Source: an uncultured Roseicyclus sp.
Lineage (GTDB): Bacteria > Pseudomonadota > Alphaproteobacteria > Rhodobacterales > Rhodobacteraceae
NCBI GenBank assembly: GCA_947491935.1
Contig: CANLLF010000002.1
Span: 806,001-870,000 of the forward strand
Reading direction: 5' to 3'
Length of the DNA: 64,000 nt
The notes under the pieces were generated by a model. It was given only the letters and a program-made list of their open reading frames with translations. It made no database searches and was not told where the DNA came from. The position numbers were made by a program, and so were the translations under genes. Shown here one piece after another: positions 3,264-50,311 of this stretch. Numbering within the stretch: position 1 is the first letter of the stretch; every line of letters begins with the position of its first letter.

Positions 3264-3265
3264 GG

Positions 3266-4549: not shown

Positions 4550-4553
4550 GACC

Positions 4554-4823: not shown

Positions 4824-4827
4824 CTGC

Positions 4828-8077: not shown

Positions 8078-8081
8078 AGGA

Positions 8082-30227: not shown

Positions 30228-31579
30228 GTGAACGCGGTTGCCGCCTGGCTCGCTCTGACAGAAGAGTCGACTAGGCTGGAGGTTCCGCGCCGCAAACCGC
30301 AACTGATGGTCACCGCAGGTTTGCTGGGCGCGATGCCGGTTCATGTTCGGGCGGATGTGCTGCGGGCCTATGTTGAAAGGTACGGGCAAGATGGCTGGTG
30401 CCGGGCCGGCATCGGCCATGGAAAAATGCGTCAGATCGCGCACCCTGAATTGGGGCCTGTCGTGCAGGAGCTGTGGGATCGGGCGTATCGAGGGTATGAA
30501 GCGCGGGAGGTTTTGCTTGAATTGATCTGGTTAACCCCTTTGCCAGATTGTGCGGATCTTGCACTGGCAGCGCTTCAAGATACGGCACTCGATATCGGGC
30601 ATTTGACCGACGCGGCGCGCGGCGTTTTGGCAGTTGGTAATACTGACGCAAAGGAGATGCTGAAGAACATGGGCCTTGCCCATGAATTGCCGCAGCCGAT
30701 CATTCGCTACATTCTGCCCGAACTTTTTTCCAACGTTCTGAGCAACGACGAATTTCTCGCCCTGATCGACAGCCTCAAGAGGTTCCCGGGACTGTCCACG
30801 GCCTGGGATACGCGATCTATTGTGCAGTCAAGTCAGTGGAGCAGGATGCCGGTACTCTTCGAGATCGGCTGGTCGCCGCGATCTGGGATCGGCGTAGAGA
30901 GGGTACTCACATATACGAGGCCCATTCATCATCTAGTCACTATGTCGAAGGCTTGTTTGAGCTTTGCCTGTCCACAATTCCGCCGGAAGGTCGCGCGGAC
31001 CCGGCATGGGGATGGGCGCTTGCGATTGCGACCCACTTTGGGGAACGGCGCGGCAGCATCATAGCTCGCCAGGAGGTCAAAGCGCTTGATGTAGCTCTTG
31101 AGGCCCGAAGCGACCGACGCAAAGCATATTTTTGGGCCTACATCCAGCTAGGCGACCGCTTGGAGGGCCGAGAGACGGATTGGGAACGCTTTATCCGAGG
31201 TACTTCCGAAACCCGCCGAGGCGCGAGCATCGTAGATTGTGATCAAGGTTGGCTGCTCAACTCCTTGCGGGATGGGCCGGAAACCGGCATTGCCTATCAT
31301 GCGTTACTGTACTTCTTCGATGTTCGATCCGACCAGGCACTTGCAAACGATATTCGAAACCGCATTGCCGATCGACCGGATCTTCTGGAGCACCTAGATG
31401 CGATAGCACAGCCGACCCATCCGGCCGTGCTATCGCTCCCATCTGCATCCTCTCAAGGGCTACGACGAGCCAAATCCCCTCGCTTCGCAAAACAACACAC
31501 TCTGTCTCAAAGGCTTTGGTGGGGTACAGGTGGCTGCGTCGAAGCGCTGCGCTGCGGCTTCCCTGAGCCGGGCGCCTGA
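30228..31579 (+). pseudogene. C-terminal part of a large unknown protein, truncated and frameshifted
   Basis: The first frame (to about 30805) encodes helical repeats: 'WLALTEESTRLEVPRRKPQL', 'PVHVRADVLRAYVERYGQDG', 'LIWLTPLPDCADLALAAL'. The second frame picks up near 'GYAIYCAVKSVEQDAGTLRD' and continues 'VAAIWDRRREGTHIYE' to about 31400. One lost base near 30802-30812 explains the switch. The start is immediately after the 18-base repeat (30190-30207) and has no N-terminal domain, so the 5' part is missing. The alpha-helical repeat style recalls C-terminal regions of large NTPase-type proteins, but no family is certain. Confidence 0.6.
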
Positions 31580-31977
31580 TGATCGCGAAGGATCTGCACT
31601 GGCCAGACGCGGGAGTGCGGGGTTAAGCTGCGTTCAGTATGTTTGCTTCGGATTGCCGTCAAAGCGCAAAGAAGGATCACGAGGAGAGCCAGGCAGTGTC
31701 GACGGGCATCGCAGCGATGCCGTTGTCCCGGCATCCACGCACAAAACGAACCGGTCAGGAGCCTTTGTGCCAATGTACCTATGCGCAGTAGAAACACGTC
31801 TTCGCGTCCAAGATGCTGGTAAGGCGTGCGGATCTAAGTAGGGCTGCCGCCACCGTTGTTCTGGCGGCTTCTCTGTCCGACGATACGACAGATGTGTGTT
31901 TTGGCAATCTGCCCGCCCTTTCGTGCTTTTCGCGTTGTCATCGATGGAGAACCAAAATCTCAATACTACGCCGTCTC
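31580..31977. other. Gene-free stretch before the membrane AraC regulator
   Basis: No gene is supported. The regulator's frame is open upstream to 31813, but that part is Cys/Arg-rich and not membrane- or signal-like, so the gap is treated as the regulator's 5' region. GGAGAA at 31946-31951 lies about 27 bases before the chosen ATG. Confidence 0.4.
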
Positions 31978-33729
31978 ATGATTGTGCTTGTCTTGGTGGT
32001 GTTTGGGTTCGGGTTTGCACCGGCTGTCGCTGCTGACCCTGATGAGGGGCTGCTTGCGTGTCGCACTGCTGCTGCCGCAGGCGACGTGATCCACAACACG
32101 CTCGAGAACCTGCCGGGCGGGCAGTTGCGTCCTTTGATGGTCGAGCATTATGCCGACCTGTCAGGATCGATGACGAGCGACGAGATCGAAGCACAATCAT
32201 TTGTCCACACGCCTTGCGCCGGGCGTTATCCGATCGAGCGCCCACGTGGTGCGTTGTGGTTGCGGTTTTCGGTCAGCAATCCGAACGACCATCAGGTCGA
32301 ATGGATGGTGGCCTTCATGGAGACCATGTTTGACGAGATGGCGCTTTATGAGCAAACCGAAGCGGGTTTGGTGTTGCGCGCACAGAATGGTCGGACCCTG
32401 CCGGTCGCTCAGCAGTCAATTGTTAGCGTAAGGACAGCATTGCCCGTGATTCTGGCGCCCGGTGAGAGCAGAGATCTGTACGTCCGGGTGGCAGGCACAT
32501 TTACCCGACACGTGACGCCGGTTCTTGTATCGGCGCCGATGTTTGACCGGTGGTCAATGTCGTTCGAAACTGTGTTGATTGTCTTGCTTGGGCTCATGGC
32601 GCTGCTGGCCGCGCTCAGCCTGATCCTGTTTCGCAACGTGACGGCCCACTTCTACAAGTACTACACGCTCTACCTGGTCTCGGCGTTTCTTTTCATTTTC
32701 ATCGTGTACGGCTGGATGCACCGGCTGTTCGACGTTCAGCTCCCTGTCACAATAGTGGTTCCCATGATCCAACTTGTGACTGGGATAAGCATCATTGCGA
32801 ATATCCAGTATTGTCGGGTGTTGTTGGCAGGTGGGAAAAGGCCGCCGGGGCAGAAACTTGGTTTCCTTGTTCTTACAGGTGTCGCTGTCATCCTCTGCAT
32901 CGTTGCCGTCATTCGACCTTGGCAACTCTCCGTACCCAACAACCTGATGTTGTTCGTGAGCCCCGTAATCTTGCTGGCCTTCGCCGGCAGACGCCTGAGG
33001 AGCGGGCTGCCTCAGGTGCTCCCATTGTGCGGATCTTTGATCTGTTTGATTGTTGGTCTGGCGATCTCCAACTACTTCTTCCTGTCCCCACCCCACATCG
33101 CCGTGTCGTCATCTGTTACGGAAGTGATGCTCTGGCGTGCGGGAACGTTCAGCTATGCGCTCGCGATCATTGGCGAAGCGATATTCATGATGTTGGCCAT
33201 TTCGACGATGCTCCGCGGCATCCGCAGCCGGAGCCAATCTGCATTCGACGAAATAGAGGCCCTTCGCCGCTCGTTGGCGGCAACACAGCGAAAAAGTGCA
33301 AAGACCGTGGAGATCGCCGAGGCCCGGGCCCGATTTGTCGAAGATGCGTTGGAGGCGAGCGCCCGAGAGCAAGTGTTACATCTTGAAGATCGGTTGGAGG
33401 AGCAGGCTCGAAAGATCATAACCAAAAATGTCGGGACGGAGGGGTTCGGCGCTCAAGCGCTGGCGTCGGAAATGGGTGTCAGCGAACGCACGCTAAGTCG
33501 ACGGATGAAAGACGCCCTCGACACGACGCCCGCGAGCTTCATTCGACAAACACGCCTCGATCTTGCACGCGACCTTATCCTGCTTCGGCATTACAGCAGC
33601 GTTGCAGAAGTGGCGCATGCCACAGGGTTCTCCAGCGTTAGCCACTTCGCCAAACTGTACAGCGCCAAATATCAGGAAACGCCGCGCACGACCTTGAAGT
33701 CGACCAAACGAACCCAAGCCGCATCCTGA
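31978..33729 (+). CDS. Membrane sensor-AraC regulator (7TMR-DISM type)
   Basis: About 583 residues from ATG 31978. Order: signal peptide (1-19, 'FAPAVAA'); periplasmic domain of about 160 residues resembling 7TMR-DISM extracellular type 2 ('RGALWLRFSVSNPNDHQVEW', 'LAPGESRDLYVRV'); seven helices (about 195-410, from 'FETVLIVLLGLMALLAALSL'); a coiled coil (about 420-480); and a C-terminal AraC HTH ('LASEMGVSERTLSRRMKDAL', 'VAHATGFSSVSHFAKLYSAK'). It is a one-component regulator that senses something in the periplasm. It is immediately upstream of the borosin-like cluster, with a GACA direct repeat 120-168 bases past its stop. Control of that cluster is inferred. Confidence 0.85.
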   Translation: MIVLVLVVFGFGFAPAVAADPDEGLLACRTAAAAGDVIHNTLENLPGGQLRPLMVEHYADLSGSMTSDEIEAQSFVHTPCAGRYPIERPRGALWLRFSVSNPNDHQVEWMVAFMETMFDEMALYEQTEAGLVLRAQNGRTLPVAQQSIVSVRTALPVILAPGESRDLYVRVAGTFTRHVTPVLVSAPMFDRWSMSFETVLIVLLGLMALLAALSLILFRNVTAHFYKYYTLYLVSAFLFIFIVYGWMHRLFDVQLPVTIVVPMIQLVTGISIIANIQYCRVLLAGGKRPPGQKLGFLVLTGVAVILCIVAVIRPWQLSVPNNLMLFVSPVILLAFAGRRLRSGLPQVLPLCGSLICLIVGLAISNYFFLSPPHIAVSSSVTEVMLWRAGTFSYALAIIGEAIFMMLAISTMLRGIRSRSQSAFDEIEALRRSLAATQRKSAKTVEIAEARARFVEDALEASAREQVLHLEDRLEEQARKIITKNVGTEGFGAQALASEMGVSERTLSRRMKDALDTTPASFIRQTRLDLARDLILLRHYSSVAEVAHATGFSSVSHFAKLYSAKYQETPRTTLKSTKRTQAAS

Positions 33730-33848
33730 TCGTTTAGGAACGCACCATGCGCCAAAGCCAGGGCGATCCCGAACGTGCGACTCGCACGATCGCAGTTGGA
33801 CAAGACCCTTGATGTTGGCCTTTTGGCCCGCCCATCGTGGGGCAGGCG

Positions 33849-33897
33849 TTTGTCCAAAAGTAGCTAATTCCGGACAAATTTGACCGAATTTCAGACA
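33849..33897 (+). promoter_or_regulatory. GACA-repeat operator candidate, site 1
   Basis: TTTGTCC (33849-33855) and GGACAAA (33872-33878) are inverted; GACA at 33873 and 33894 are direct repeats 21 bases apart (two helical turns), spaced as AraC-family half-sites often are. The block ATTCCGGACAAATTTG...TTTCAGACA recurs at 39984-40014 and 60671-60701. It lies between the membrane AraC gene and the first precursor gene. Confidence 0.6.
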
Positions 33898-34039
33898 ATC
33901 AAACTCCGGCCTGTTCCCCGATTTCAAATGATCTGTCTTTGGTTGACGTAGGGTCATCCGACACAGTCCAGACCCACCCGAACAGATGGCCCCATGGGCC
34001 TGTCGCGTTCGGTCCGTCTTAACCTTGAGAGGGAGACCG

Positions 34040-34084
34040 ATGATGGTTCGTGAAATTCAGTTGAAACAGGGAGATATCCAATGA
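34040..34084 (+). CDS. Micro-ORF coupled to the first precursor gene
   Basis: A 14-codon frame reading MMVREIQLKQGDIQ, preceded by GAGAGGGAG. Its TGA stop overlaps the ATG of the first precursor (ATGA). It is too short for family assignment. It may be a translation-coupling leader, or chance. The precursor has its own AGGGAGA, which lies inside this ORF. Confidence 0.3.
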   Translation: MMVREIQLKQGDIQ

Positions 34085-34395
34085 TTGACGTTCTGAACGA
34101 CTTGGCGACAAATCTTGCGTCTGTCCGCGCGTTTCGGGCAAGTCCCGAAGCTTACCTGGACAGGTTCGTTGATCTGACATCCGAAGAACGGCAGCTCATG
34201 CTGGACGGAGACTCGGGAAAAGTCAGTGGGTACCTTTCTGGCAAGGCGAACACAGAGACCACCATCGTTGTGATCATCCTTGCGGCGCCAGAGGCATCCA
34301 GAAACGGCGACGTTGATGCGCGCGAATTTCACGAAGCGCGCCATGTCGATTTTTGGAACCATGTGGACCAGCGCAGCGACGTTCTCGCCGCCTAG
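34081..34395 (+). CDS. Borosin-like precursor peptide A (putative)
   Basis: 104 residues. The N-terminal ~50 residues are helical with 'FRASPEAYLDRFVDLTSEER' and 'LMLDGDSGKV', the same layout as the borosin-binding domain of split borosin precursors (F..xPE..L..F.LT.EE...ML.GD). Then comes a Val/Ile-rich stretch (60-69, TTIVVIILAA) ending in APE, the candidate methylated core. An acidic tail contains HVDFWNHV (88-95). AGGGAGA lies 7 bases before the ATG. The next gene is a paralogue and the methyltransferase is three genes downstream. The LigA-like N-terminal pattern is an alternative description; the context favours a RiPP precursor. Confidence 0.7.
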   Translation: MIDVLNDLATNLASVRAFRASPEAYLDRFVDLTSEERQLMLDGDSGKVSGYLSGKANTETTIVVIILAAPEASRNGDVDAREFHEARHVDFWNHVDQRSDVLAA

Positions 34396-34428
34396 ATCCG
34401 ATCTTGTACAACAATTCAGGAGGGCAAA

Positions 34429-34779
34429 ATGCTCAAATTCCTTAACCTAATCAGCAATGACCACGAGTCTCTGATGGCGTTCCAGAGCGACCCGGAAGGG
34501 TTTCTGAAGCGGTTTGATGAGATCTCACCTGAGGAGCGCAAACTCCTTCTGTCGCGTGACTCGATGGCCGTTGAATGGCACCTGAGAAACGCGTTGCAGA
34601 ATGGTGACGCTGACACGACGATTCATGCGGCGACGACAGTGTCGGTTGTTGCGGTCATCCTCATCTTGGCGCCCGAGTTCGACGCGCTGGACGAAGAGGG
34701 TGCAAGCGAATTGCAACTGCAACAGCACAACGATTTCTGGTCACATGTCACCGAGCGTGGCGCGGCATACGCCTGCTAA
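34429..34779 (+). CDS. Borosin-like precursor peptide B (putative)
   Basis: 116 residues, a paralogue of the upstream protein. N-terminal domain: 'MAFQSDPEGFLKRFDEISPEER', split as QSDPEGFLKRF plus ISPEERKLLL. Then a longer hydrophobic stretch (69-80, TTVSVVAVILIL) ending in APE, an acidic tail, NDFWSHV (101-107) and a C-terminal Cys (116). The shared hydrophobic-APE and DFW(N/S)HV elements with precursor A suggest constrained core and follower regions. AGGAGGG stands 7 bases before the ATG. The stop overlaps the strong AAGGAGG of the next gene. Confidence 0.7.
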   Translation: MLKFLNLISNDHESLMAFQSDPEGFLKRFDEISPEERKLLLSRDSMAVEWHLRNALQNGDADTTIHAATTVSVVAVILILAPEFDALDEEGASELQLQQHNDFWSHVTERGAAYAC

Positions 34780-34792
34780 GGAGGAAAGTCAG

Positions 34793-35194
34793 ATGAAATT
34801 CAAACTTATCACAGCAGCGGCCGTCGCCATCGTGATGGCGTTCCCTGCGGTTGCCCAGGAAACCGGCGTCGAAGCAGAGATGCAGATGATCGCGGACGGG
34901 GTCAACGGCCTCCACGCGCAGGCCGAAGCGGGAAATGCCAGAGCGGCGTTCTACCTCTCGTCCCTGTATCATGTCGGAATGTTCGTCTCGCCGGATCGCC
35001 AGCTTGCGATGGAGTATCTGAACACCGCAGCCGAAGCAGGTGATCCCGAAGGGCAATACTATCTTGGCCTTCACTTCCTCAACGGCGTCGAAGTCGATCG
35101 TGACATCGAACGCGGTACCGAGTTGATCTCGGCGGCGGCAGAGGCCGGGCATACGGCGGCCAACATTGCCATGGATACCTACCTGACTGAGTAA
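34793..35194 (+). CDS. Exported Sel1-repeat protein
   Basis: 133 residues. A Sec signal peptide (1-21, 'FPAVAQ') is followed by two or three Sel1-like repeats (about 46-82 and 83-120: 'AEAGNARAAFYLSSLYHVG', 'AEAGDPEGQYYLGLHFLNG', 'AAEAGHTAANIAMD'). Sel1 repeats form alpha-solenoids that bind proteins. It sits between the precursor genes and the methyltransferase, with AAGGAGG 8 bases before its ATG. A periplasmic partner for the peptide product or the regulator's sensor domain is possible but inferred only from position. Confidence 0.82.
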   Translation: MKFKLITAAAVAIVMAFPAVAQETGVEAEMQMIADGVNGLHAQAEAGNARAAFYLSSLYHVGMFVSPDRQLAMEYLNTAAEAGDPEGQYYLGLHFLNGVEVDRDIERGTELISAAAEAGHTAANIAMDTYLTE

Positions 35195-35199
35195 CACCG

Positions 35200-35220
35200 T
35201 CAAACAGTCCTGCTGTTTGA
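35200..35220 (+). terminator. Hairpin after the Sel1 gene (attenuator candidate)
   Basis: TCAAACAG-TCCTG-CTGTTTGA is a perfect 8-base stem with a 5-base loop, 6 bases past the sel1-like stop. The following bases (TCTTCCTTTG) are T-rich but not a full T-tract, so it may slow or partly stop transcription, or protect the 3' end of the precursor message. That would make precursor exceed methyltransferase. Confidence 0.5.
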
Positions 35221-35228
35221 TCTTCCTT

Positions 35229-35282
35229 TGAGGCACGCGCCCGAAGCAATCTCGCAAGGGTTGTGAACACCTGCGTGCCTCA
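35229..35282 (+). repeat. 10-base inverted repeat before the methyltransferase gene
   Basis: TGAGGCACGC (35229-35238) and GCGTGCCTCA (35273-35282) are perfectly complementary, with a 34-base loop, ending about 33 bases before the methyltransferase ATG. With the hairpin just upstream, the whole 121-base gap is structured. Confidence 0.5.
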
Positions 35283-35315
35283 TCCTCTCTCAAAGAACAA
35301 TTTGGAGTGCATCCG

Positions 35316-36122
35316 ATGGGAACCTTAACCGTAGTGGGCACTGGAATTATGTTTCCATCCCAGATGACCTTTCAGGCAGCCGACGCAATTCGGGCTGCGG
35401 ATGTGACGCTATTCAACGTGGGCAATCACGCTCTTGCGGTCGACTGGATCAACGACAACGCCAAGCTGGCGGTTGATCTCTATGATTACTACGACCACGG
35501 AAAAAGCCGCCAGCACACATACGGACAGATGGTGGACGCCATCCTCGATGAGTTGAGAGCGGGGAAGAACGTCGTCGCCGCCTTCTATGGCCATCCGGGT
35601 GTATTTGTGGGCCCGGGGTTCGATGCGATCAAACAAGCCCGCAAAGAGGATTTTGAAGCCTACATGTTGCCGGGTGTGTCTGCCGTGGACTGCATGTTTG
35701 CAGATTTGGAATTCGATCCTGCGCCTTATGGCTGCACGATGGTTGAAGCCTCGGATTACGTTCTGATGGAACGCAATTACGATAGCCGGATGCCGCTGAT
35801 TGTCTGGCAGGCTGGTGTCGTTGGCGACATCTCGTTCAATGCCAAAGGCTATGCCACGTCCGAAAGCGAAGACATGCTGAAGCGACGCTTGCTGCGTGAC
35901 TATCCCGAAGATCATCCGATTATCACCTATGTCGCAGCGACCTTGCCGGGCATGCAATCGAAGACACGCAACGCAACGATCGGCACCCTTGAAGATCTCC
36001 GCTTGAATGCCTCCAGCACATGCCTGGTTCCGCCAATTCACGTCGGGGCATTTGATGCCGAACTTGGCGAGGAATTCCTGAGGCAGATGCGGTCTTCCGT
36101 TCAGTCGGAAAACGCAGCCTAG
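35316..36122 (+). CDS. Split-borosin-type peptide alpha-N-methyltransferase (putative)
   Basis: 268 residues with the tetrapyrrole-methylase fold, SAM-dependent. VVGTG (6-10), 'AGKNVVAAFYGHPGVF' (82-97) and 'LPGVSAVDC' (118-126) mark the SAM site. Unlike cobalamin or sirohaem methylases, it has the borosin pattern Y56, Y59, R65, Y69 followed by QM. This has the same spacing as the catalytic Tyr/Arg set I recall for fungal OphMA, and 'TYGQMVDAILDELRAGK' closely resembles SonM of Shewanella. It should methylate backbone amides of the upstream precursors. Start 35316 has TGGAG 8 bases upstream; a GTG at 35307 is less likely. No precursor is fused, hence the 'split' type. Confidence 0.85.
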   Translation: MGTLTVVGTGIMFPSQMTFQAADAIRAADVTLFNVGNHALAVDWINDNAKLAVDLYDYYDHGKSRQHTYGQMVDAILDELRAGKNVVAAFYGHPGVFVGPGFDAIKQARKEDFEAYMLPGVSAVDCMFADLEFDPAPYGCTMVEASDYVLMERNYDSRMPLIVWQAGVVGDISFNAKGYATSESEDMLKRRLLRDYPEDHPIITYVAATLPGMQSKTRNATIGTLEDLRLNASSTCLVPPIHVGAFDAELGEEFLRQMRSSVQSENAA

Positions 36123-36430
36123 CCGCGCAAAGGGGCTGGCTTCGTTTGCTTTCGTCTCTGCGGCTCAGGAAGAAGCCTGATGAGTTTGTGCATTTCGCGC
36201 ACCTTTCGGCCGCCCGCATATGGCGTGGTTGATGTTGCGAAATGTCCAAGACCAGCTGGCGCCAGGTGTTCTGAGCCGCAAAGGCGCCAGCTTTCAGACG
36301 CCTGGACGGTGGTGAGGCGCGGGCAAACGCGGCTGATCTTGGCGGGCGACGCAAGGGTCTTGGGACATTTCCGATTACACGACGCGTCCTCTGTAGGCGC
36401 GCCCACACCTTTAAACGGGAGAAGCCGGGG
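36123..36430. other. Gene-free stretch with inverted repeats
   Basis: No gene is supported. AGCTGGCGCC (36254-36263) and GGCGCCAGCT (36283-36292) form a perfect 10-base stem with a 19-base loop, a possible 3' end for the borosin-like operon although no T-run follows. A second, wider inverted pair is GAAATGTCCAAGAC (near 36239) and GTCTTGGGACATTTC (near 36358), with one extra base; these could be operator half-sites for the outer-membrane protein gene. Confidence 0.5.
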
Positions 36431-39400
36431 ATGCTTCTTAGAGTTCCAGCACTGGTTTTTGCAGTCACTGTCGCGATTGTCGGCGGTCCGGCTTCGGCTC
36501 AGAACGTCAACGCGAGCTGCCCTGCGCGGTCGGTAGAGTATGCTATAGGCGGCAACAATGCTGTTTCTTACGGCGCGGCCGCTGGCAATGTGTGTACGGA
36601 AGACCCAGCCGCTGCGCTGGTTGGGGCCGCGGCAATCTTTTTGCCAACGTCCTACAGCCTTTCTGGTTTCAGCGAAGGGGGCGGGTCTTTTTCAACGTCC
36701 TGCGTCGGCGGGTCGAGCGACATTCCTTATGGCCAGACCAGATCATGTTCGGCTTCGTCCATCACCGATGGCTTCCAATATGAGGTGAGTTTTAGCGCAA
36801 CCGCGAAGTTGGTGCAGAATGGTGGCACCCTTCGCGTAGTGGTCGACTTTGGGGAGTCGACCTTTTCTCGCACGGCGATCCCCGCAACACTCAGCCTTGC
36901 CTCACGGGCGGCGACAAGTGTTCCGTTTAATGTAGTCGTCACATCGGATCAGGATCTTGACCCTACCAGTGTCGCAGCAACCGATCTCACCGTTACTGGC
37001 ACCGGCAGCGCGACTGCGACCGTCGACATGCCAGTTATCGTTTCGCCGACTGCACTTTATTTCCGCGTAACCCCTAGCGGCGAGGGGGCACTTTCGTTTG
37101 AAATTGCCGCCGGTGCGATTGATGGGGTCCACGGGGTCAGCAATTCAGCGACATCTCTGTTAACGGTCATCGTGGATACGATCAGACCAACGGCCACTTT
37201 CTCTGCATTGCCGCCAATTGTGGGGTCGAACCCTCTGGAAGTCACATTGACCTTCTCTGAGGCGGTGACCGGATTGACGGTGGATGAGTTGATTACAACC
37301 AATCTGACCGCATCAAACCTACAAACCACGGACAACATCACCTACGCATTCGAGGTCGTGGCGTCCGGCGACGGGCCCGGTGGTGTGTCGTTGCCCTCCA
37401 GCGCGGCGCGGGACCCACTGGGCAACCGAAGTTTCCCTGTCGACGAAGTTGTGACGCAGGCCGTGGCCTCGCGGCCAGAGATCACATTCGTTGAAATCGA
37501 CAGCGCGCCGGGTGACCGACGATTGTATCGCTTCAATGTCTCGCGCCCGGGCGGTGGCAGGGTCGATTTCATACGGCCAAGTGTGTCGCCTATTCTCGTA
37601 AACGCCTCGCTCATCACCACCGGATTGAACTTCGTATCCGGGGAATTGACGCTTACCGTCCTCCCCAGTGGTGGCGATGTCTCCGTCTCTTGGCCGGAAG
37701 GTGCGTTCTTTGATGTTGAAACGGGGAACACGAGCCTTGCCTTTGGACCAACGATTGTTGACTCCGTCGATCTGAGCCCGCCCAAGCCCACGATCAGTTT
37801 CGAAGGGTATGATCTTGAAAACACTTTCACCGCCCGGATCACTTGGGATGAGGATGTCACCGGATTTACCAGATCCGACATCACGCCGGTCGGGGCGACG
37901 CTTGGCGCGTTCGCGGCAGTCAGCGCCTCGGAATATACCGTCGAGGTGACGGCCATCGACCTGACGACTGCGCCGTCGATCAATATCGCCGCTAACGTGG
38001 CGGAGGATCTGGCGAGCAATGGCAATCTTGCCGCGAACGGCGCACCACCCCCGGCCGACGGAATCGCGCCCGTGCTGGACATCACCGGCGTGCCGGACGG
38101 GTTCGGCGGGCCGCAGATTGTGACCGTCGGTTTCAATTGGGGCGAACGTGTTCTGGGCTTTGAGGACGGCGATATCGCAGTGACGGGCGGCACGCTTGGC
38201 CCGATCACCGGCGGGCCGCAGATTTGGACGGCGCAGTTTACCATCCTTGGAACCGAGGATGTCTCGGTGACGGTTGCCGCACACGCCGTCCTGGATGCCA
38301 GCGGCACACCCAATGCCGCGACCGGCAGCGACGGCGCGGTCGAGACCGATCCGCCTACACCCAAGATCACCTATGCGGGCTATGACCGGATCGACCCGTT
38401 CACGGCGACGATCACCTTTGACGAGGATGTAACCGGGTTCGAGGTGGGGGATCTTGTGGCGCCGTTTGCGCAGCTCAGCGCCTTCACGGCGGTCTCGGCC
38501 AGTGTCTACACGGTGACGGTGCAGGGCTTCGACCTGCTGACCCCGCCCGAGGTCTCGGTTCCGGCAGGTGTCGCGCAGGATCTGGCGGGCAACCTCAACC
38601 TGGCCGCCCAAGCGGCCGCCATCGCGCCGCCCGACGGCGTGGCGCCCGTGGTCACGATCACGGGCGTGCCGGATGGGTTCACCAGCGCCCAGACCGCCAC
38701 GATCACGTTCGATTGGGGTGAGGATGTCATCGATTTCCGCGACGCGGACATCACTGTCACCGGCGGCACATTAGGGCCGATCGGCGGTGGCCAGCAGACG
38801 TGGACCGCCAGCCTCTCCGTCGACGGCGACCGCGATGTGGTTGTGTCTGTCGCGGCCAATGCTGCGTTGGACGGGTCGGGGATGGGCAGTGCGGCGGCCT
38901 CTGTCATCGGTGCGTTTGCGAGCGGGGAGATTGCCGAAGAGTTGATCCGCGAGTTCCTTGGCGCCCGGTCAGCGGCATTGTTGGCCGCGCAGCCGAACCT
39001 GTCGGGGCTGTTGGACAATGACGGGCCAAGCGGCAACATCTCGGTGACCCGCGGCGTTGGCACCGTTCAGATCCGCACGGGCAGCGAAGGGCCGATCTGG
39101 GCGGCGCTGAATTCCAACTGGTCCGACATCGATGGATTTGAAACGACATATACCAACGTCAGCTTCGGGACGCACATGTATCTGCAGGACGAAACGTTAT
39201 TGGGTGTGATGGTGCAGTTGGATCATGCAACGTCGTCCGAGGGCGTGTCGGACATCGAAGGCACCGGCTGGCTCATCGGGCCTTATTACGTGGCGCGTTA
39301 TGACGACGTGGATCTGGATGCCCGGCTGCTCTGGGGACGGACGGAGAATGAGATCAGCCCGCTTGGCACATACACCGATAGATTTTCGACCGAGCGTGTG

Positions 39401-39805
39401 TTGGCGATGGTCAACTTATCCGGTGAGATCGAGGCCGGTGCGACCCTGCTCCAACCGCTGGTCGGCTGGTCCTACGTGGAGGACAGATCCGAGGCGTATC
39501 TCGACGCATTGTCCAACCCCGTCGCTGCGCAGCGAGTGCGACTGAGCCAGCTGGAGGTGGCATTGGACTGGACGCGGCCCATAGGCGCCAACGGCATGGA
39601 GTTTGTCGGCGGCATGGCGGGCCTCTTCACGGCTGAAGAGGGGGGAAGTGGCAATGTGGAGGGCGCCCGCGGGCGGCTTGACCTGGGCCTTCTCCGACAG
39701 GGGCAAGGTCCGTTGAACTTCGACATTGGACTCTACGCCGATGGCCTCGGTCAATCAGGGTTCGAGGCTTACGGTATTGATCTGAGCGTGGATTGGCGGT
39801 TCTGA
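36431..39805 (+). CDS. Large Ig-like repeat protein with C-terminal autotransporter-like barrel
   Basis: 1124 residues. A signal peptide (1-23, 'GGPASAQ') precedes a unique N-terminal region (about 24-150). From about 150 to 840 there are Ig-like domains of the bacterial Ig type, with recurring 'TITFDEDVTGFEVGD', 'VTITGVPDGF' and 'DITVTGGTLGPI' units. The last two pairs are nearly identical, so recent duplication is likely. The C-terminal ~270 residues are beta-barrel-like and end in WRF, the outer-membrane insertion signal. Likely a surface-exposed adhesin-type autotransporter. It is 308 bases after the methyltransferase, same strand; a functional tie to the peptide cluster is unproven. Confidence 0.82.
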   Translation: MLLRVPALVFAVTVAIVGGPASAQNVNASCPARSVEYAIGGNNAVSYGAAAGNVCTEDPAAALVGAAAIFLPTSYSLSGFSEGGGSFSTSCVGGSSDIPYGQTRSCSASSITDGFQYEVSFSATAKLVQNGGTLRVVVDFGESTFSRTAIPATLSLASRAATSVPFNVVVTSDQDLDPTSVAATDLTVTGTGSATATVDMPVIVSPTALYFRVTPSGEGALSFEIAAGAIDGVHGVSNSATSLLTVIVDTIRPTATFSALPPIVGSNPLEVTLTFSEAVTGLTVDELITTNLTASNLQTTDNITYAFEVVASGDGPGGVSLPSSAARDPLGNRSFPVDEVVTQAVASRPEITFVEIDSAPGDRRLYRFNVSRPGGGRVDFIRPSVSPILVNASLITTGLNFVSGELTLTVLPSGGDVSVSWPEGAFFDVETGNTSLAFGPTIVDSVDLSPPKPTISFEGYDLENTFTARITWDEDVTGFTRSDITPVGATLGAFAAVSASEYTVEVTAIDLTTAPSINIAANVAEDLASNGNLAANGAPPPADGIAPVLDITGVPDGFGGPQIVTVGFNWGERVLGFEDGDIAVTGGTLGPITGGPQIWTAQFTILGTEDVSVTVAAHAVLDASGTPNAATGSDGAVETDPPTPKITYAGYDRIDPFTATITFDEDVTGFEVGDLVAPFAQLSAFTAVSASVYTVTVQGFDLLTPPEVSVPAGVAQDLAGNLNLAAQAAAIAPPDGVAPVVTITGVPDGFTSAQTATITFDWGEDVIDFRDADITVTGGTLGPIGGGQQTWTASLSVDGDRDVVVSVAANAALDGSGMGSAAASVIGAFASGEIAEELIREFLGARSAALLAAQPNLSGLLDNDGPSGNISVTRGVGTVQIRTGSEGPIWAALNSNWSDIDGFETTYTNVSFGTHMYLQDETLLGVMVQLDHATSSEGVSDIEGTGWLIGPYYVARYDDVDLDARLLWGRTENEISPLGTYTDRFSTERVLAMVNLSGEIEAGATLLQPLVGWSYVEDRSEAYLDALSNPVAAQRVRLSQLEVALDWTRPIGANGMEFVGGMAGLFTAEEGGSGNVEGARGRLDLGLLRQGQGPLNFDIGLYADGLGQSGFEAYGIDLSVDWRF

Positions 39806-40325
39806 TCCGCGGCTAGGATAGGCGACTGACGCCGAGTTTAGGGTCCGGCGTTGATCGGTGAGACCCCAGGAACACCAAGACAGCATTCTTGCGTTTCACG
39901 ATGAAAGTCATGACCAATGCCGAACGTTGAAATGTGCACCTGATGCCCCCCGTCCGCGCCGACCTTCCCGGTCGAAATGCGCGATTCCAGACAAATTTGG
40001 CCGCATGTCAGACAAAACTCATGTGGCCTGTTTCCTGAGCCCTGTCGACGTGCCTATCTTGTCTCAAGTTTTGACGGGATCGCTCAGGCAGACACAAACG
40101 CGGCACGCGTTTTTGCATTCATCACAGCAGCGAACTTGCCCGCAGACCGTCAATTTCAGGCGGTGACATCGATGATCAGAATTTAGCCACACCATGGTTT
40201 GTGGCCAACGGGCCATCACGTGGTTGATCCCGGTTTTTTGGAATGAAGTAAGGGAGGCTGGACCGTGCGTCGCATCGAAGCTTTGATGGTAGAAGCGGCA
40301 ATTCTCGGGTTGTCCGTGATGCACC
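39806..40325. other. Gene-free stretch with operator-like site 2
   Basis: No gene is supported; the short frames here have no family-like character. It carries the second GACA-repeat site (39984-40014) and possibly the promoter of the SulP gene. TTGACG at 40072-40077 could be a -35 element, without an obvious -10. Confidence 0.4.
39984..40014 (+). promoter_or_regulatory. GACA-repeat operator candidate, site 2
   Basis: ATTCCAGACAAATTTGGCCG followed by CATGTCAGACA, with GACA at 39990 and 40011, again 21 bases apart. It matches site 1 at about 25 of 31 positions. It lies 310 bases upstream of the SulP gene and 180 bases past the Ig-like protein. Confidence 0.55.
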
Positions 40326-42194
40326 ATGTATGACCTCTCTCAAGAGCACGCATCCGACGGCCGGGCTGAGGCGCACAAGCCTCATACTATCCCCGGGCGC
40401 ATCGGGCGCCGGAGGGGGATGGACCAGCCAGCAGAGCGCATGGGTTGGTTGCACCATATCCCCGCGGCTCTCATCGCCGGACTGATCTGTGGGTTGCTCG
40501 CCGTGATGTTTTCAATCTCGGCAGCGGCTTTGTTATTCTCGTCCGTGTTGAGCGAATACATCGTTGTTGGCATCGGCATCTGCGTTTTCGGGACAATCGT
40601 TCTGAACAGCTTCATCGCGTTTTTCAGCTCCTGCCCGGGCATTGTCTCCGTCACTCAGGAAGTCACTGTCGTGACTTTGGCCGTCATCGCAACCTCCATC
40701 CATGCCAGGATGTTCGCGGCACACAGCGAGGCAGAGACGCTGGCAACGATCATCGTCATGATCGGGCTTGCGACGGCGATCACGGGGCTTGCGCTTCTTT
40801 TGATTGGGACACTGCGTCTGGGGCGTTTCATCCGCTTCGTTCCCTACCCAGTTACTGCCGGGTTCCTGGCGGGTATGGGGTGGCTGATCGTATCAGGCGC
40901 CATGGCCGTCATTCTCGACATTCCACTGGATCACCTATCTATCTCCAGTCTTCTCGCCCCGGAAAACTTTACCAAGTGGGTGCCCGCCACAATTTTCGCC
41001 GCAATCGTCTATGCGGTTTCTCAACGCAATGGCAGCCCCCTTATTTTGCCATCAGCCGTTATCGTCTCTCTCATTTTGTTTCATTCAGGGGTCGCAATCC
41101 TGGACCTGTCTATCACAGAACTACAGCATTTCGGCTGGCTGTTTACGCCACCACAAGACGGTCGGCTTTTACTGCCGTTCCAGGGCAATCCATTGGCCAT
41201 GGCAGATTGGGGGATCATCTGGTCCGAAACGCCCAAGATTGTCGCATTGGTTGCAATCACGGCCTCCGCATTGCTGTTTGCGTCCAGCGGCATTGAGGTT
41301 TCGCTCAAACGTGATGTCGATCTGGATCGCGAATTGCGGGTGGCGGGCATTGCCAACATCTTTACAGGTGCTGGCGGAGGGGCTGCCGGATTTCAGGGAC
41401 TGGGCCTCACGCTTCTGGCTCATCAACTTGGTGCGCCCTTTCGCATTGTTGGTCTGCTTGTCGCGGGCGTATGTATTGCCGCCTTGTTTTATGGACCCAT
41501 GCTACTCAGCTTTGTTCCGGTTCCGCTTCTTGGCGGTCTGCTTCTTTGGATTGGCGGATCCTTAATCTATGAGTGGTTGATTGCAATTCGGGCTCAGATC
41601 CCACGGTTTGAGCATCTTACAGTTTTACTCGTGGTCATTGTGATGGTGACGGTCGGGCTGATTGAAGGAATTCTGGTTGGCGTTTTTGCTGTTACCGCTC
41701 GCTTCATGTTCGATTTCTCTCGTGTCGACGTCATTAAATATGTGATTACGAGCGGAACCTGTCAGAATCCGAACGGTAATGGAGACAACAGTTCTTCGAA
41801 CTATAAAGATGATAACAACCGTATCCTTGCGTTGAAGCTTCAAGGGTTCATTTTCTTTGGCAACGTATACCGCTTACATCACTTTATTTTGGGGCAGTTG
41901 GGCCAAGAATGCGAACTGAACACCCGATTTGTGGTATTGGATTGCCTGGACGTCACTGGAATTGACTCATCAGCCATGAGGAGTCTGAAAAAGATACGTG
42001 ACCTAATCGAAAAGAAGAATGGGCGGTTGATCTTGAGTGGCCTGACGCAGGCCAATTCCGAAAAGGTGTCAGATTTAACAAGACGGGGCGACAACGGCCA
42101 AGGTATTTACCGCTTTGTTGACACGGCCCAAGCCATCGCCTGGTGTGAAGGCAGTATTTCAACTGGCTTGGATGATCGAACACGGCGCTGCTGA
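40326..42194 (+). CDS. SulP-family anion transporter with STAS domain
   Basis: 622 residues. A polar N-terminus (~45) is followed by about 12 helices of the SulP/SLC26 fold ('PAALIAGLICGLLAVMFSIS', 'GFLAGMGWLIVSGAMAVIL', 'GAGGGAAGFQGLGLTLLA'). A cytoplasmic STAS domain (about 490-610) contains 'VVLDCLDVTGIDSSAMRSL'. SulP proteins move sulfate, bicarbonate, dicarboxylates or other anions; this subfamily's substrate is unknown. Many relatives carry a C-terminal cyclic-nucleotide-binding domain, which is absent here. The start may instead be Met32 or Met39, just before the first helix. Confidence 0.88.
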   Translation: MYDLSQEHASDGRAEAHKPHTIPGRIGRRRGMDQPAERMGWLHHIPAALIAGLICGLLAVMFSISAAALLFSSVLSEYIVVGIGICVFGTIVLNSFIAFFSSCPGIVSVTQEVTVVTLAVIATSIHARMFAAHSEAETLATIIVMIGLATAITGLALLLIGTLRLGRFIRFVPYPVTAGFLAGMGWLIVSGAMAVILDIPLDHLSISSLLAPENFTKWVPATIFAAIVYAVSQRNGSPLILPSAVIVSLILFHSGVAILDLSITELQHFGWLFTPPQDGRLLLPFQGNPLAMADWGIIWSETPKIVALVAITASALLFASSGIEVSLKRDVDLDRELRVAGIANIFTGAGGGAAGFQGLGLTLLAHQLGAPFRIVGLLVAGVCIAALFYGPMLLSFVPVPLLGGLLLWIGGSLIYEWLIAIRAQIPRFEHLTVLLVVIVMVTVGLIEGILVGVFAVTARFMFDFSRVDVIKYVITSGTCQNPNGNGDNSSSNYKDDNNRILALKLQGFIFFGNVYRLHHFILGQLGQECELNTRFVVLDCLDVTGIDSSAMRSLKKIRDLIEKKNGRLILSGLTQANSEKVSDLTRRGDNGQGIYRFVDTAQAIAWCEGSISTGLDDRTRRC

Positions 42195-42423
42195 ATATGG
42201 CGCTTCCTGGCTATGACGCGAGCATTCAAAGATGCCCCTTCGAAGAGCGCGTTCTTGTGGGGCAGCCAGAGCGCCTTTCTTGGCGACGAGGCCCATCCTT
42301 AAGCCCTAGTTTCGCGGGGTGGTGGCCGTTGGACCCAGGTGGAACCTGACGCGTGCCGGTTGGCAATCATATTTGCCTGTGCAGCGTCGACATCGGGTGA
42401 GCAGCCGACGGGCTGTTGGAGGT

Positions 42424-43134
42424 TTAATCGGCCGGGTTCTGATCCATGGCCGTCGCCACCATCCTGCTGGCTCCCGAAATGCGCCCGAGGGGAAGCGGGT
42501 CGTCGCCGCGTTTGCGGCGGCGTTCGGCCACAATCTGTCCGCGGGTCAGGGCGATTTCGCTGATGGGCGCTGCATCATGCGGCTGCATCGCGTAGACGCC
42601 ATCCGCATCAGCAAGGATCGCATCCCCCGGCATCACCGCCACGCCACCGACCGACACCGGCACATGTGCCCGCCCGCCCAGATCGGCCATCCTTGTCGTC
42701 ATCGGTGAGACGCCCCGACACCAGACCGGGAACCCCATCTCGGCCAGTTCTTCGCCATCGGTGCACGGCCCGTCGATGATGGCGCTCACGATACCTTGCC
42801 GTGTGGCGGCGGCGGCCACACCGTCGCCGAGGCAGGCATGACGCGTATCGCCAAGACGGTCGATCACCAGGATATCGCCGGGCGCGGCCAGCCCGATGGC
42901 GTGGTGCAACATCACCGAGCACGGCCCGGGAATCTGCACAGTGAGCGCTCGGCCTGCGACGCGGGGGCCAAATCCCTGATTGGCTCGGATGCCGGGATCC
43001 ATCGCCCCCCAGTACAGGATATGGCCCAGCATCGTCGTCTCGCATTGCCGCAGCGTTTCGACGATGGCCGGGTCGAGCGCGGCGGGCGCGGGTCCGATGG
43101 CGTATTTGGGCGGTGAGGGCAGGGGGTCGGTCAT
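42424..43134 (-). CDS. RraA-like/HMG-aldolase-fold protein
   Basis: A 236-residue RraA family protein. The fold is shown by 'AAPGDILVIDRLGD', 'CLGDGVAAAATRQGIVSAII' and 'PGDAILADADGVYAM'. Family aldolases split 4-hydroxy-4-methyl-2-oxoglutarate or oxaloacetate with a DGxxRD pair; here it reads DGPCTD (121-126), so the usual substrate-binding Arg is Thr and the activity may differ. Its start overlaps the permease gene end by 4 bases; it closes an operon of nitrilase and peptide-type ABC importer, suggesting a step in breakdown of the imported compound. Confidence 0.85.
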   Translation of the reverse strand: MTDPLPSPPKYAIGPAPAALDPAIVETLRQCETTMLGHILYWGAMDPGIRANQGFGPRVAGRALTVQIPGPCSVMLHHAIGLAAPGDILVIDRLGDTRHACLGDGVAAAATRQGIVSAIIDGPCTDGEELAEMGFPVWCRGVSPMTTRMADLGGRAHVPVSVGGVAVMPGDAILADADGVYAMQPHDAAPISEIALTRGQIVAERRRKRGDDPLPLGRISGASRMVATAMDQNPAD

Positions 43135-43982
43135 CGTTCGCTCCGCAAAGTCGGGTCAAGCCGGTCGCGCAGCCAGTCGCCGATCATAGAGACCGAGAGC
43201 GCGAGACAGAAGATGATTGCGCCGGGCAGAAGCGTCAGCCACCAGGCGGTCATCAGACGGTCTCGGCCCTCGGACATGATCTGGCCCAGGCTGGTGAGCG
43301 GCGGCTGCACGCCGAGGCCGAGGAAGGAGAGCGCGGTTTCCAGCAGGATCGTCAGGGGAAGGTTCACGGTGAACTGGACCAGCGCGATGTTGAGGATATT
43401 CGGCAGCACATGGCGCAGATAGATCCGCGCAGGGGTCGCACCCAGCGCGCGCACGGCGGTGACATAGCCCGACTCCTTGGCCTGCAGCGTCGCGCCGCGC
43501 ATCAGGCGGGCATAGACCTCCCAGCCGTTCAGGCCGACGAGCAGCAAAAACAGCGTGAAGGAATTGTCGAACATCGCCAGCATGAAAAGCGCCACGATGA
43601 TGATCGGCAGGGAGGCCTGCACGTCGATGGCCGCCACGATCACCGCTTCTGTCTTGCCCCGTTGCGCGGCGGCGATGATCCCCAGAAGCGAGCCGAGAAC
43701 GGCTCCGATCACCGTGCCGACAATCGCCACAACCAACGTGATTTGCGCGCCGGTGACCAGACGGGCAAATAGGTCGCGCCCGCGTGCATCCGTACCAAGC
43801 AGATAGCCTTCGGTGCCGGGCGGCTCCAACCGATGGAGGAGGGACGTTTCGCGGAACCCGTGCGGTGTGAGCAGGTGGCCAAAAATGGCGACCAGCACGA
43901 AGCAGGCCACGAAAACGAGCGCGAGTTTTACGCTGAGCGGGATCGCCGGGGCGACGCGGAGCGGTGTGATGCTGTTCGTCAT
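43131..43982 (-). CDS. ABC transporter permease (DppC/OppC type)
   Basis: A 283-residue inner-membrane permease. An N-terminal helix (~18-38) is followed by the OppC N-terminal segment 'LLGTDARGRDLFARLVTGAQ' and five more helices. The EAA-like loop is 'AVRALGATPARIYLRHVLPN'. It pairs with the DppB-type permease upstream, overlapping it by 4 bases. Confidence 0.95.
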   Translation of the reverse strand: MTNSITPLRVAPAIPLSVKLALVFVACFVLVAIFGHLLTPHGFRETSLLHRLEPPGTEGYLLGTDARGRDLFARLVTGAQITLVVAIVGTVIGAVLGSLLGIIAAAQRGKTEAVIVAAIDVQASLPIIIVALFMLAMFDNSFTLFLLLVGLNGWEVYARLMRGATLQAKESGYVTAVRALGATPARIYLRHVLPNILNIALVQFTVNLPLTILLETALSFLGLGVQPPLTSLGQIMSEGRDRLMTAWWLTLLPGAIIFCLALSVSMIGDWLRDRLDPTLRSER

Positions 43983-44887
43983 TTCGCGCGGATCCTCGGG
44001 TCGATGACGAGGTACAGCATGTCGACGATCAGATTTGCCATGACCATGGTGAAGGCCACGACCAGCACCAGAAACTGCACTTGCGCCAGATCCCGCGTGG
44101 CGACCGAGCGCACCAGAAGCTGCCCGACGCCGGGCCAGGCAAAGACCTGCTCTGTCACCACCGAGCCCGCCACCAGCGCGCCCAGCGACAGGCCGATCAG
44201 CGTCACCAGCGGGATCGCGGCATTGGGGGCCGCGTGGCGCACAAGGCGCCTCCCGAACGGCACGCCCCGCGCCTCGGCGGCGCGCATGTAAGGCGCGTTG
44301 ATCGTCTCCAGCACCGACGACCGGGTGAAGCGGGCGAAACTGCCCATCGCGGCCAAACCAAGGGTCAGCGCAGGCCAGATGACATTGGCGTTCTCCCCGC
44401 CCAGAAAGGTGCTGAAGGCCAGAGCGGCCACAAGGATCATCACCAGACCGAAGAGGAAATTCGGCATCGCAAAGGCAAAGACGGAAAACCCCATGACGAA
44501 CCGATCCAGCGCCGTGCCCCGTCGGATAGCCGCCAGCGCGCCGATGGGAATGCCAATGAAAACGGCCAGGGCAAGCGCCGTGATGCCCAGATGCAAGGTG
44601 AACGGCAGACGCCCCAGAAACGTGTCCTCCACTGCAATACCGGTATGGATCGAGAAGCCGAAGTTCCCCTGCAAAAGCCCGCCGACATAGCCCAGATACT
44701 GTTGCCAAAGGGGCTGATCGAGGCCCATGAGGCGGGCGTATTGATCGATCACTTCCTGCGGTGCATCGGGGGGCACAAGGGCTGCCGCGGGATCGCCCGA
44801 AAGACGGATGAACAGAAAGACCAGCGTCACGGTGACCAGCATCGTCAGGGTCGCGCGCAGGACACGGGAAAGGATGTAACCGGTCAT
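43979..44887 (-). CDS. ABC transporter permease (DppB/OppB type)
   Basis: A 302-residue permease with six helices, opening '[20 protein letters not shown]' as usual for DppB. It contains 'LGLDQPLWQQYLGYV', a DppB hallmark, and an EAA loop 'AAEARGVPFGRRLVRHAAPN'. It overlaps both neighbours by 4 bases. Together with the DppC-type protein it forms the membrane channel for a peptide- or opine-like substrate. Confidence 0.95.
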   Translation of the reverse strand: MTGYILSRVLRATLTMLVTVTLVFLFIRLSGDPAAALVPPDAPQEVIDQYARLMGLDQPLWQQYLGYVGGLLQGNFGFSIHTGIAVEDTFLGRLPFTLHLGITALALAVFIGIPIGALAAIRRGTALDRFVMGFSVFAFAMPNFLFGLVMILVAALAFSTFLGGENANVIWPALTLGLAAMGSFARFTRSSVLETINAPYMRAAEARGVPFGRRLVRHAAPNAAIPLVTLIGLSLGALVAGSVVTEQVFAWPGVGQLLVRSVATRDLAQVQFLVLVVAFTMVMANLIVDMLYLVIDPRIRAK

Positions 44888-46524
44888 GCGGCGCTGCCCT
44901 GCTGGAACTGATCCAACCCCGGCGCGGCGGCCAGAAGCGCCTGGGTATAGGGATGCGCCGGTGCGGCAAACACGCGGTCGGCGGAGCCGTGCTCGACGAT
45001 CTCGCCGGATTTCATCACCAGAATATCGTCGGCGATGGCACGCGCCACGGCAAGATCGTGGGTGATAAAGAGGATCGCGAAGCCGAAGCGATGCTGCAGA
45101 TCGGCGAACAGATCGAGGATCTGCGCCTGGATCGAGACATCGAGCGCCGAGACCGCCTCATCGGCGATCAGGACCTCCGGCTCCAGCGCCAGGGCCCGCG
45201 CGATACAGATCCGCTGGCGCTGCCCTCCCGAAAACTCCTGCGGATACCGTCCGCCTGATTGGGCCGACAGCCCGACCAGCTCAATCAATTCGGCGGCCTT
45301 CTGGCGGGCGTCGGCGGGGGCCATGCCATGGATGATCGGCCCCTCCGCGATGGCCGACAGGATCGTCTGGCGCGGGTTCAGGGCCGAGAACGGGTCTTGT
45401 AGAACAACCTGGATCGATTGGCGCAATTGCCGCAATGGCGCGCCCGTCAACGTGCTGATCTCCTGCCCCTTGAAGCGGATCGAGCCGCTGTCGATCTCCT
45501 CCAACCGCAGAAGACATCGCGCGAGCGAGCTTTTGCCCGAGCCACTTTCGCCGACAACCGCCACAGTGCGCCCTGCGGCGATCTCCAGCGACACATCCTT
45601 TACTGCGTGCAGCGCCTTGCGATTGCCCAGAAAGCCGCTGCGATAGATCAGGTTTACATCGGTCGCGTCCAGGATCGGCGTGTCGCCATGTTGGCCCAGC
45701 GTCCGCGGCGTTGGGTTGACCGCTGCAATCAGTTTGCGTGTGTAGGGATGTTGCGGAGCCTGAAGGACATCCTCCGCTGTCCCGGCCTCCACCAGCACAC
45801 CCTCCTGCATCACCGCGACTCGGTCGGCGATCTCGGCCACGACGCCGAAATCATGGGTCACGAACAGAACCGCCAGTTCGTGTTCGACCTTCAGGCGCGT
45901 GATCAGAGCGAGGATCTCGGCCTGGGTGGTGACATCGAGCGCCGTGGTCGGCTCATCGGCGATCAAGAGATCCGGCTTGAGCAGAAGCGCGGCCGCGATC
46001 ACTGCGCGCTGTGCCTGCCCGCCGGACAGTTGATGCGGATAAGATCGCGCAATGCGCTCAGGCTCTCGCAGGGCCACATCGCGCAACACCTCAAGAACGC
46101 GCGGGCCGCGGTCGGTCTTCGACATCCCATGCACGGCCAGAATTTCGGCCAATTGCCCCCCGATCGTCCGTACAGGGTTCAGGCTCGCACCCGCATCCTG
46201 GAAAATCATCGCAATCTGCGCCGACCGGATGGTACCGAAGGCCCGGTCGCGCTGTGGCGGCATCTCTGCGCCAGCAAACCGGATGCAGCCGGCCGTGACG
46301 GGCAGGGCGTGCGGCAACATGCCAAGGACCGCCTGTCCCACAACCGATTTGCCCGACCCGCTTTCCCCCACAAGACAGAGCGTTTCTCCGGGCGCGATCG
46401 CAAAACTGATGCCAGAGACCGCCTCGGGCCGGTCGCCATCAACCGGCAATGCGACGGTCAGATCCTCGATGGAGAGGAGCGGCGCGCGCGGCGCCGACTC
46501 CGCGCGTTGGGGCTCACTCATCAT
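44884..46524 (-). CDS. ABC transporter ATP-binding protein, DppD-DppF fused
   Basis: 546 residues holding two complete ABC ATPase domains: Walker A GESGSGKS twice, signatures LSGGQAQR and FSGGQRQR, Walker B '[12 protein letters not shown]' and '[12 protein letters not shown]'. Normally DppD and DppF are separate; the fused form is common in alphaproteobacterial importers. It also has oligopeptide/dipeptide C-terminal segments ('[10 protein letters not shown]', '[10 protein letters not shown]'). The start overlaps the 3' end of the binding-protein gene by 11 bases. Confidence 0.95.
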
Positions 46525-48975: not shown

Positions 48976-49080
48976 TTCCCGTCCTTTGGTTGATGCGATG
49001 ATCGACCATAGGACGTGAAACCTGCTAGAAAAAAGAACAAAATTGTTGTAATCCGTCTGATTTTCTCACATTTCAAGCAG

Positions 49081-50016: not shown

Positions 50017-50173
50017 TCGGATAGGTCTGCCTTGTTCCGCAGAACATTGGTGCCGGGGTAACAGAGGGAATCCTCTGTAATGTCGTACCGGCTCATTTCC
50101 CCTTTTTGTTGGTGAAGGAGCCGATAATCGCCGAACGAAGGGCGCCGACTCTGAGGCCGCGATCTGAATAGGT

Positions 50174-50311
50174 CTAAAGTGTTTTGGCAGACTTCGAACT
50201 GGTTGCTACACCCTCGACCTTGGCAAACTTCGTTGCTTTGTCCTTGCCTAAAGGCTTGGTCACGAAGCGTCCTGTGGTCGCCGATCTCTTGAGTGCGGTG
50301 CTCTTGTTCAT
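50174..50311 (-). CDS. Short basic protein of unknown function
   Basis: 45 residues, strongly basic, opening 'MNKSTALKRSATTGRFV', then 'TKPLGKDKATKFAKVEGV'. Small 'RSATTGRFV' proteins of this kind are frequent unnamed ORFs in proteobacteria, sometimes beside toxin genes; no partner is evident here. There is no strong ribosome site, only GGTGCGACT upstream of the ATG. Confidence 0.5.
   Translation of the reverse strand: MNKSTALKRSATTGRFVTKPLGKDKATKFAKVEGVATSSKSAKTL

Follow-up and report, generated by a model that had tools for sequence, protein, structure and literature searches.

A stretch of DNA of 64,000 nucleotides (the window in what follows), part of contig C2 of a 4.65 Mb genome of an uncultured Roseicyclus sp., very probably contains a split-borosin operon in which one enzyme methylates two small proteins that each bear a borosin-binding domain (BBD), a reading that draws on sequence comparisons and structural models. 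The operon consists of four genes in a row on the + strand (34081–36122), in the order precursor 1, precursor 2, Sel1 protein and methyltransferase. In the class scheme given in Figure 1 of PMC11395268, class 3 combines the BBD and the core in one protein and keeps the methyltransferase separate, and sequence and model comparisons give good support for placing the window system in this class. Backbone N-methylation is a sought-after feature of peptide drugs, and PMC8429565 states that as of 2021 no type IV split borosin pathway had been tied to a final natural product. The tail, the second precursor and the predicted exported partner in a four-gene unit offer handles on borosin maturation and purpose, namely a cut site to seek, a candidate binding protein, and a natural substrate pair with which to study enzyme tolerance. 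Among named relatives, an uncultured Roseicyclus record (L004) comes closest to the locus; it was counted together with L008 as one organism, and the other members of the clade at hand are L005, from a second genus, and L006, which a contig edge truncates where the enzyme starts.

The methyltransferase

Judged by its sequence, the 268-residue enzyme is a borosin peptide-backbone N-methyltransferase without a fused core. It matched 27 distinct sequences in the PDB at E ≤ 0.01, and 25 of these are borosin methyltransferases, with E-values of 3e-54 for dbOphM, approximately 1e-51 for OphMA, 1e-41 for MroMA and 1e-38 to 7e-38 for SonM, while the remaining two are CbiF (1.4e-3 and 2.7e-3). This bears out the first-pass annotation, which had proposed a stand-alone borosin enzyme and had weighed it against a grouping with the cobalamin or sirohaem methylases. 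A tetrapyrrole methylase unconnected with the small proteins would fit the Pfam TP_methylase match (8e-20), but borosin enzymes match at 7e-38 or better against 1.4e-3 for the best tetrapyrrole enzyme, and the NCBIfam tetrapyrrole models remain far under their cut-offs (29.5 bits vs 163 for cobI_cbiL, the best specific model, and 44.9 vs 525 for YabN). In addition, of the two other TP_methylase frames in the genome one reached 13 bits with the enzyme profile (A1) and the other gave no match. We thus rejected the assignment as a cobalamin/sirohaem tetrapyrrole methylase, and regard this alternative as extremely improbable.

The catalytic residues were compared across 26 aligned borosin enzymes, namely the window enzyme, its near copy in L004 and 24 others, with four rows coming from three plasmid records. 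All 26 have Y59, R65 and Y69, and 24/26 have Y91, whereas Y56 is present in only 5/26. The Y56/Y59/R65/Y69 spacing earlier taken as diagnostic for borosin enzymes thus holds for its last three members, while Y56 is not a feature of the family. When SonM is aligned with a Shewanella-type enzyme and positions are counted by hand, window residues Y59/R65/Y69/Y91 correspond to Y58/R67/Y71/Y93 of SonM, and PMC8429565 reports lowered activity for mutants of each of these four SonM residues. Y56 was rejected as a catalytic residue of the family, both for its low occurrence and since the equivalent of SonM Y58 is Y59. In the Shewanella-type enzymes a three-residue insert separates Y58 from the arginine (R67), and for this reason the residue spacing alone is misleading.

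A tree was made of 31 borosin enzymes together with the two further TP-methylase frames in this genome, taken to be CysG-like and RsmI-like; the enzymes of L019, L049, L054, L056 and L058 are included in this tree only and are absent from the 26-row alignment. The enzymes of the window, L004, L005 and L006 form a clade with 100/100 support and a stem of 0.87, whereas SonM falls in another supported clade, and by E-value the window enzyme is nearer to OphMA (1e-51) than to SonM (1e-38). Half of the inner branches (15/30) are left open, and as the outgroup rows sit on very long branches the tree is unrooted. By homology the enzyme would be a homodimer. Its ATG start at 35316 gives 268 aa, and an alternative GTG at 35307 would give 271 aa.

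Two small proteins with a borosin-binding domain

As the first-pass annotation had it, the two small proteins upstream are paralogues (36% identity), and a homologue is present in the second genus (L005, 46% identity and tblastn E 1.7e-19 with precursor 2), which has a single precursor. Sequence and model comparisons support an N-terminal five-helix BBD in both, encoded beside the enzyme. Pfam searches with the small proteins gave sub-threshold matches only, LigA among them (E 0.011 and 0.12). A profile of precursors 1 and 2 and the L005 homologue (A2) matched 34 PDB sequences at E ≤ 10, and the top 15 are all the OphMA/dbOphMA clasp (residues 323–381, E 0.008–0.015). The same profile was run against 1893 open reading frames (ORFs) of 25 other borosin loci, some of which are paired from one genome and hence not all independent, and gave 12 matches at E ≤ 0.3; ten of these are located within 100 bp of the enzyme frame or inside it on the same strand, vs 121 of the 1893 ORFs (p 5e-11), while the best match among reversed ORFs had an E-value of 3.8. 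The ten enzyme-adjacent matches represent ten of the 25 loci, with none in the other 15. Two matches lie away from the enzyme, at L016 3264–3695 and L050 8596–8811; the L016 frame, on Sinorhizobium meliloti pSymA, is another BBD-like ORF in that locus (E 0.019), its product being signal-like at the N-terminus and hydrophobic at the C-terminus, and it adjoins a nitroreductase-family gene.

A SonA-type profile was built from six precursors of other lineages, five of which are among the A2 matches (the sixth, L037, reaches only E 3.6). This profile matches SonA at 3e-22, and its hhalign comparison with A2 gave 95% and an E-value of 4e-8 over residues 2–54, in agreement with the initial proposal that both small proteins are separate precursors combining BBD and core. 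LigA matches 13/14 of the aligned precursors at E ≤ 1, which agrees with remarks in PMC8429565 that liken the BBD fold to LigA and describe BBD homologues as capping dioxygenases. A model of residues 1–61 of precursor 2, made from a 12-row alignment, has five helices and a pLDDT of 88, and in a Foldseek search of the PDB library (E ≤ 10) 30 of its 31 matches were SonA or MroMA chains, at a TM-score (query) of 0.56–0.65.

Several points speak against reading these proteins as BBD-bearing borosin precursors. The Foldseek matches of the domain model have weak E-values (1.1 or weaker), and the alignment behind that model contained SonA-type rows; the profile search that used no SonA-type rows gave modest evidence for a BBD in the window precursors (E 0.008). 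Precursor 2 alone found nothing meaningful in the PDB, so that the profile was needed, while the full-length precursor model had a pLDDT of 66.7 and its fold search gave no relevant match. Further points are that the precursors are longer than SonA, that a tail follows the core, which is absent in type IV, and that the four operon genes include no peptidase or exporter.

With regard to the predicted substrate region, the core of precursor 1 is TTIVVIILAAP (residues 60–70), which is rich in Val and Ile and ends in Ala-Pro, and that of precursor 2 is TTVSVVAVILILAP (residues 69–82), preceded by a linker after the binding domain that is longer by 12 residues. The hydrophobic stretch of precursor 1 starts 17 residues past the D of a conserved GD, and L63 of SonA is likewise 17 residues past its D (by hand count on the alignment); from this equal distance, methylation of precursor 1 would be expected to begin at about I62. 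The Ala-Pro probably marks the end of the core. Beyond it, the two window precursors and the L005 homologue share a conserved tail motif, FW.HV..R, which nine aligned precursors of other lineages lack.

It could be argued that just one of the small proteins is a substrate, the other being a decoy or regulatory subunit that occupies the enzyme via its binding domain, as one precursor suffices in L005 and the SonA binding domain alone inhibits SonM with a Ki of 3.9 µM (PMC8429565). Both window precursors nevertheless retain the hydrophobic core, the Ala-Pro and the tail, which makes such a division of roles very doubtful. Another alternative is that the small proteins are methylated yet never cut, with the whole N-methylated protein and its tail being functional, for instance as an intracellular partner or regulator. 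This is consistent with four genes lacking a peptidase or exporter, with precursors devoid of a signal peptide, and with a tail conserved between genera, which a discarded follower would not need. It is countered by the release of fungal borosins as peptides (PMC11285071) and by proteases near the enzyme in some other loci (pepsin-like in L043, prolyl oligopeptidase in L017), and we consider it unlikely, though worth keeping in mind.

With SonM/SonA, the type IV system of Shewanella oneidensis (PMC8429565), the window system shares a methyltransferase separate from a BBD-bearing precursor, equivalent catalytic residues, BBD homology, and the distance from GD to the hydrophobic stretch as in SonA L63. 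It differs in having two precursors, of 104–116 aa vs about 70–75 aa for SonA, in the tail after the core, and in the inclusion of Sel1 in the operon. Because of the length of the precursors and their tail, the system falls outside strict type IV, with its precursor of approximately 75 residues and core near the C-terminus. The fungal OphMA/dbOphMA proteins give the best sequence matches to the enzyme, and their clasp region matches the precursor profile, but they have enzyme, clasp and core in one protein, whereas these are separate in the window.

Split borosin types V–X have reportedly been defined by Imani and Cho in 2022, and one of these types may already have such a tail. An exported repeat protein in the operon is not known to us from any described borosin system. 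The terms 'borosin' and 'Sel1' were not found together in the open-licence literature searched, which is weak evidence of absence. Relative to SonM/SonA, the distinguishing features are the conserved tail, the two paralogous precursors, the separate enzyme clade, and an exported Sel1 protein whose gene, in two genera, follows the precursor and precedes the enzyme.

The Sel1 protein and the proposed pathway

The coordinates of the operon genes and nearby features are listed in Table 1. A purine-rich stretch precedes all four starts, although that of precursor 1 is weak, and no identifiable part was found at 33849–34080.

Table 1. Positions of the operon genes and associated features in the window
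Feature	Coordinates	Strand	Description
7TMR-DISM membrane sensor with AraC-type DNA-binding domain	31813..33729	+	Identified with Pfam; possible regulator; neighbour of the operon in this genus only
Precursor 1	34081..34395	+	104 aa; putative BBD at about 1–54, linker, core, and tail with FWNHVDQR
Precursor 2	34429..34779	+	116 aa; laid out as precursor 1; tail with FWSHVTER
Small Sel1-repeat protein	34793..35194	+	133 aa; signal-like N-terminus
Hairpins in the gap between Sel1 and enzyme	35199..35282	+	Window z -2.41; possible partial terminator
Borosin-type peptide backbone N-methyltransferase	35316..36122	+	268 aa; Y59/R65/Y69/Y91

The exported Sel1 protein proposed for the locus in the first-pass annotation was recovered as a protein with two repeats and a hydrophobic, signal-like N-terminus ending in AVAQE, from which export is predicted. 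L005 has a homologue with 40% identity in the same place and order, and the remaining 25 loci gave no match (best E 2.1), although some of them have short flanks and one, L006 of the same clade, is cut at the enzyme. This absence would suit a Sel1 gene that is a chance passenger outside the borosin pathway, were it not that the gene keeps its position in the second genus despite different flanks, and that it shows no replacement changes vs three silent ones between the sister species. The latter numbers are small (silent/replacement codon changes are 3/0 for Sel1, 2/4 for precursor 1, 2/3 for precursor 2 and 7/6 for the enzyme). On balance a passenger is decidedly unlikely.

In the pathway we propose, the homodimeric methyltransferase would bind the N-terminal five-helix BBD of each small protein, and this binding would put the Val/Ile-rich core into the active site, where Y59/R65/Y69/Y91 would position backbone amides for S-adenosylmethionine-dependent N-methylation, proceeding from the N- to the C-terminus up to approximately the conserved Ala-Pro. 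Acting on two precursors, the one enzyme would give two related products, which is plausible. The conserved tail may serve a later step, for instance by being recognised when the precursor is trimmed or exported, and the Sel1 protein, itself exported, may likewise act later by binding the product in the periplasm. The enzyme family, the catalytic residues, the binding domain and the gene order in a second genus are supported by sequence and model comparisons; the methylation sites, the two products, all steps after methylation and what Sel1 does are inferences.

The operon has a single long gap, located between Sel1 and the enzyme, which contains hairpins in the window and the near copy L004 (z -2.4 and -3.0), while L005 has a different, GC-rich hairpin followed by TTTTC at this position (z -1.35, not significant). 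A consensus terminator scan gave no excess (3 vs 3.3 in shuffles). Partial termination in this gap is possible, and would keep the enzyme below its substrates.

Flanking genes, distribution and other borosin loci

The membrane-sensing AraC regulator that had been counted as part of the locus does exist, with 7TMR-DISM and AraC domains (the 7TM Pfam model itself is just below cut-off), but it is encoded outside the region to which the locus had been assigned and does not belong to the conserved unit. It is present in the same 2/41 relatives as the enzyme. Downstream of the operon, at 36431–39805, a 1124-aa protein has five Big_12 stretches and a signal-like N-terminus, and ends in F, like outer-membrane barrels; it accompanies the operon in the sister species, and parts of it are 70% alike elsewhere in two congeners. 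As neither the AraC sensor nor the Big_12 protein has a convincing match in the 12.8 kb around L005, their membership of the conserved unit is unsupported; L005 keeps the order precursor, Sel1, enzyme while its flanks differ, which leaves precursor(s)-Sel1-enzyme as the conserved unit. The sister species shares 31011–50449 of the window at approximately 96–97%, while another congener, with different genes upstream, shares only the part from 42425 onward (83%, as far as the compared stretch extends); going by these two comparisons, 31.0–42.4 kb appears to be an island within the genus. Conjugation-type genes (TrbI, CagX, TraG P-loop, type II/IV secretion ATPase) are located on the - strand at 401–9657, some 25 kb from the operon.

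The enzyme was found in 2/41 relatives, 1/394 genomes of the family, 3/380 of the order, 4/385 of the class, 2/327 of a second class sample and 15/398 of the phylum; these samples overlap and their thresholds vary, and each of them except the second class sample includes the window genome. Most matches outside the genus are distant: apart from the window genome and the sister species, the order sample yielded only one distant enzyme, which is placed elsewhere in the tree, and the second class sample yielded distant enzymes only. Plasmid records gave 21 with distant enzymes, all below 60% identity, and no match to precursor 2, the one precursor searched there. There was no enzyme match in phage records, and viral contigs contained one distant enzyme (L056) and no precursor relatives among 123 pattern matches. 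L056, an IMG/VR contig catalogued as viral that may be a host fragment, encodes a borosin-type enzyme with 35% identity, which groups with the fused-type enzymes. The L006 enzyme is the closest to the window clade from outside the family, and its stop is overlapped by the start of a porin-like ORF (L006:771-1760, Porin_4 E 4e-4, below cut-off).

Finally, we looked at the neighbours of the enzyme in 14 loci of other lineages, all from the same phylum as the window and chosen for a long same-strand ORF near the enzyme (L041 has none, and fused and plasmid loci were left out). All 14 have a sensor output domain recognised by Pfam beside the enzyme or precursor, which is GGDEF in 11 and a histidine kinase with receiver domains in three. 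TPR repeats are present at E ≤ 1e-3 in 10/14 of these membrane sensors, seven of which reach a Pfam cut-off, and by a crude hydropathy scan 12/14 are hydrophobic both near the N-terminus and in a segment immediately preceding the output domain. Sel1 repeats, like TPR repeats, form helical solenoids. This pattern suggests that an exported solenoid reads the borosin product, and by extension split borosins could be signal peptides read by exported helical-repeat proteins, a tentative and rather unlikely generalisation. In the window lineage the solenoid would then be the free Sel1 protein in the operon, the output in this genus possibly the neighbouring 7TMR-DISM/AraC sensor, and the tail after the core a tag for release or delivery. 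The terms 'borosin' and 'GGDEF' do occur together in the open-licence literature searched, and the link between the two is partly known, since the legend of Figure 1 in PMC11395268 marks a GGDEF domain.

Several of the other loci contain further genes next to borosin-type enzymes. There is a known link between shewasin and borosins, and in L043 a pepsin-like aspartyl protease (3783–5186, Pfam Asp 1e-11) is encoded two genes upstream of the split-borosin enzyme; a search for a pepsin-like protease in the window genome gave no match, with the positive control silent too. On plasmid p155_2 of Bradyrhizobium sp. 155 (L017, 3766–8778), two borosin-type enzymes, a TauD-family dioxygenase, a BBD precursor and a prolyl oligopeptidase adjoin each other. 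Lastly, the borosin enzymes at L053:6226-7884 and L052:6025-7719 have long C-terminal runs of ELNDAA-like or EQHVT-like repeats, and look like fused precursors with repeated cores.

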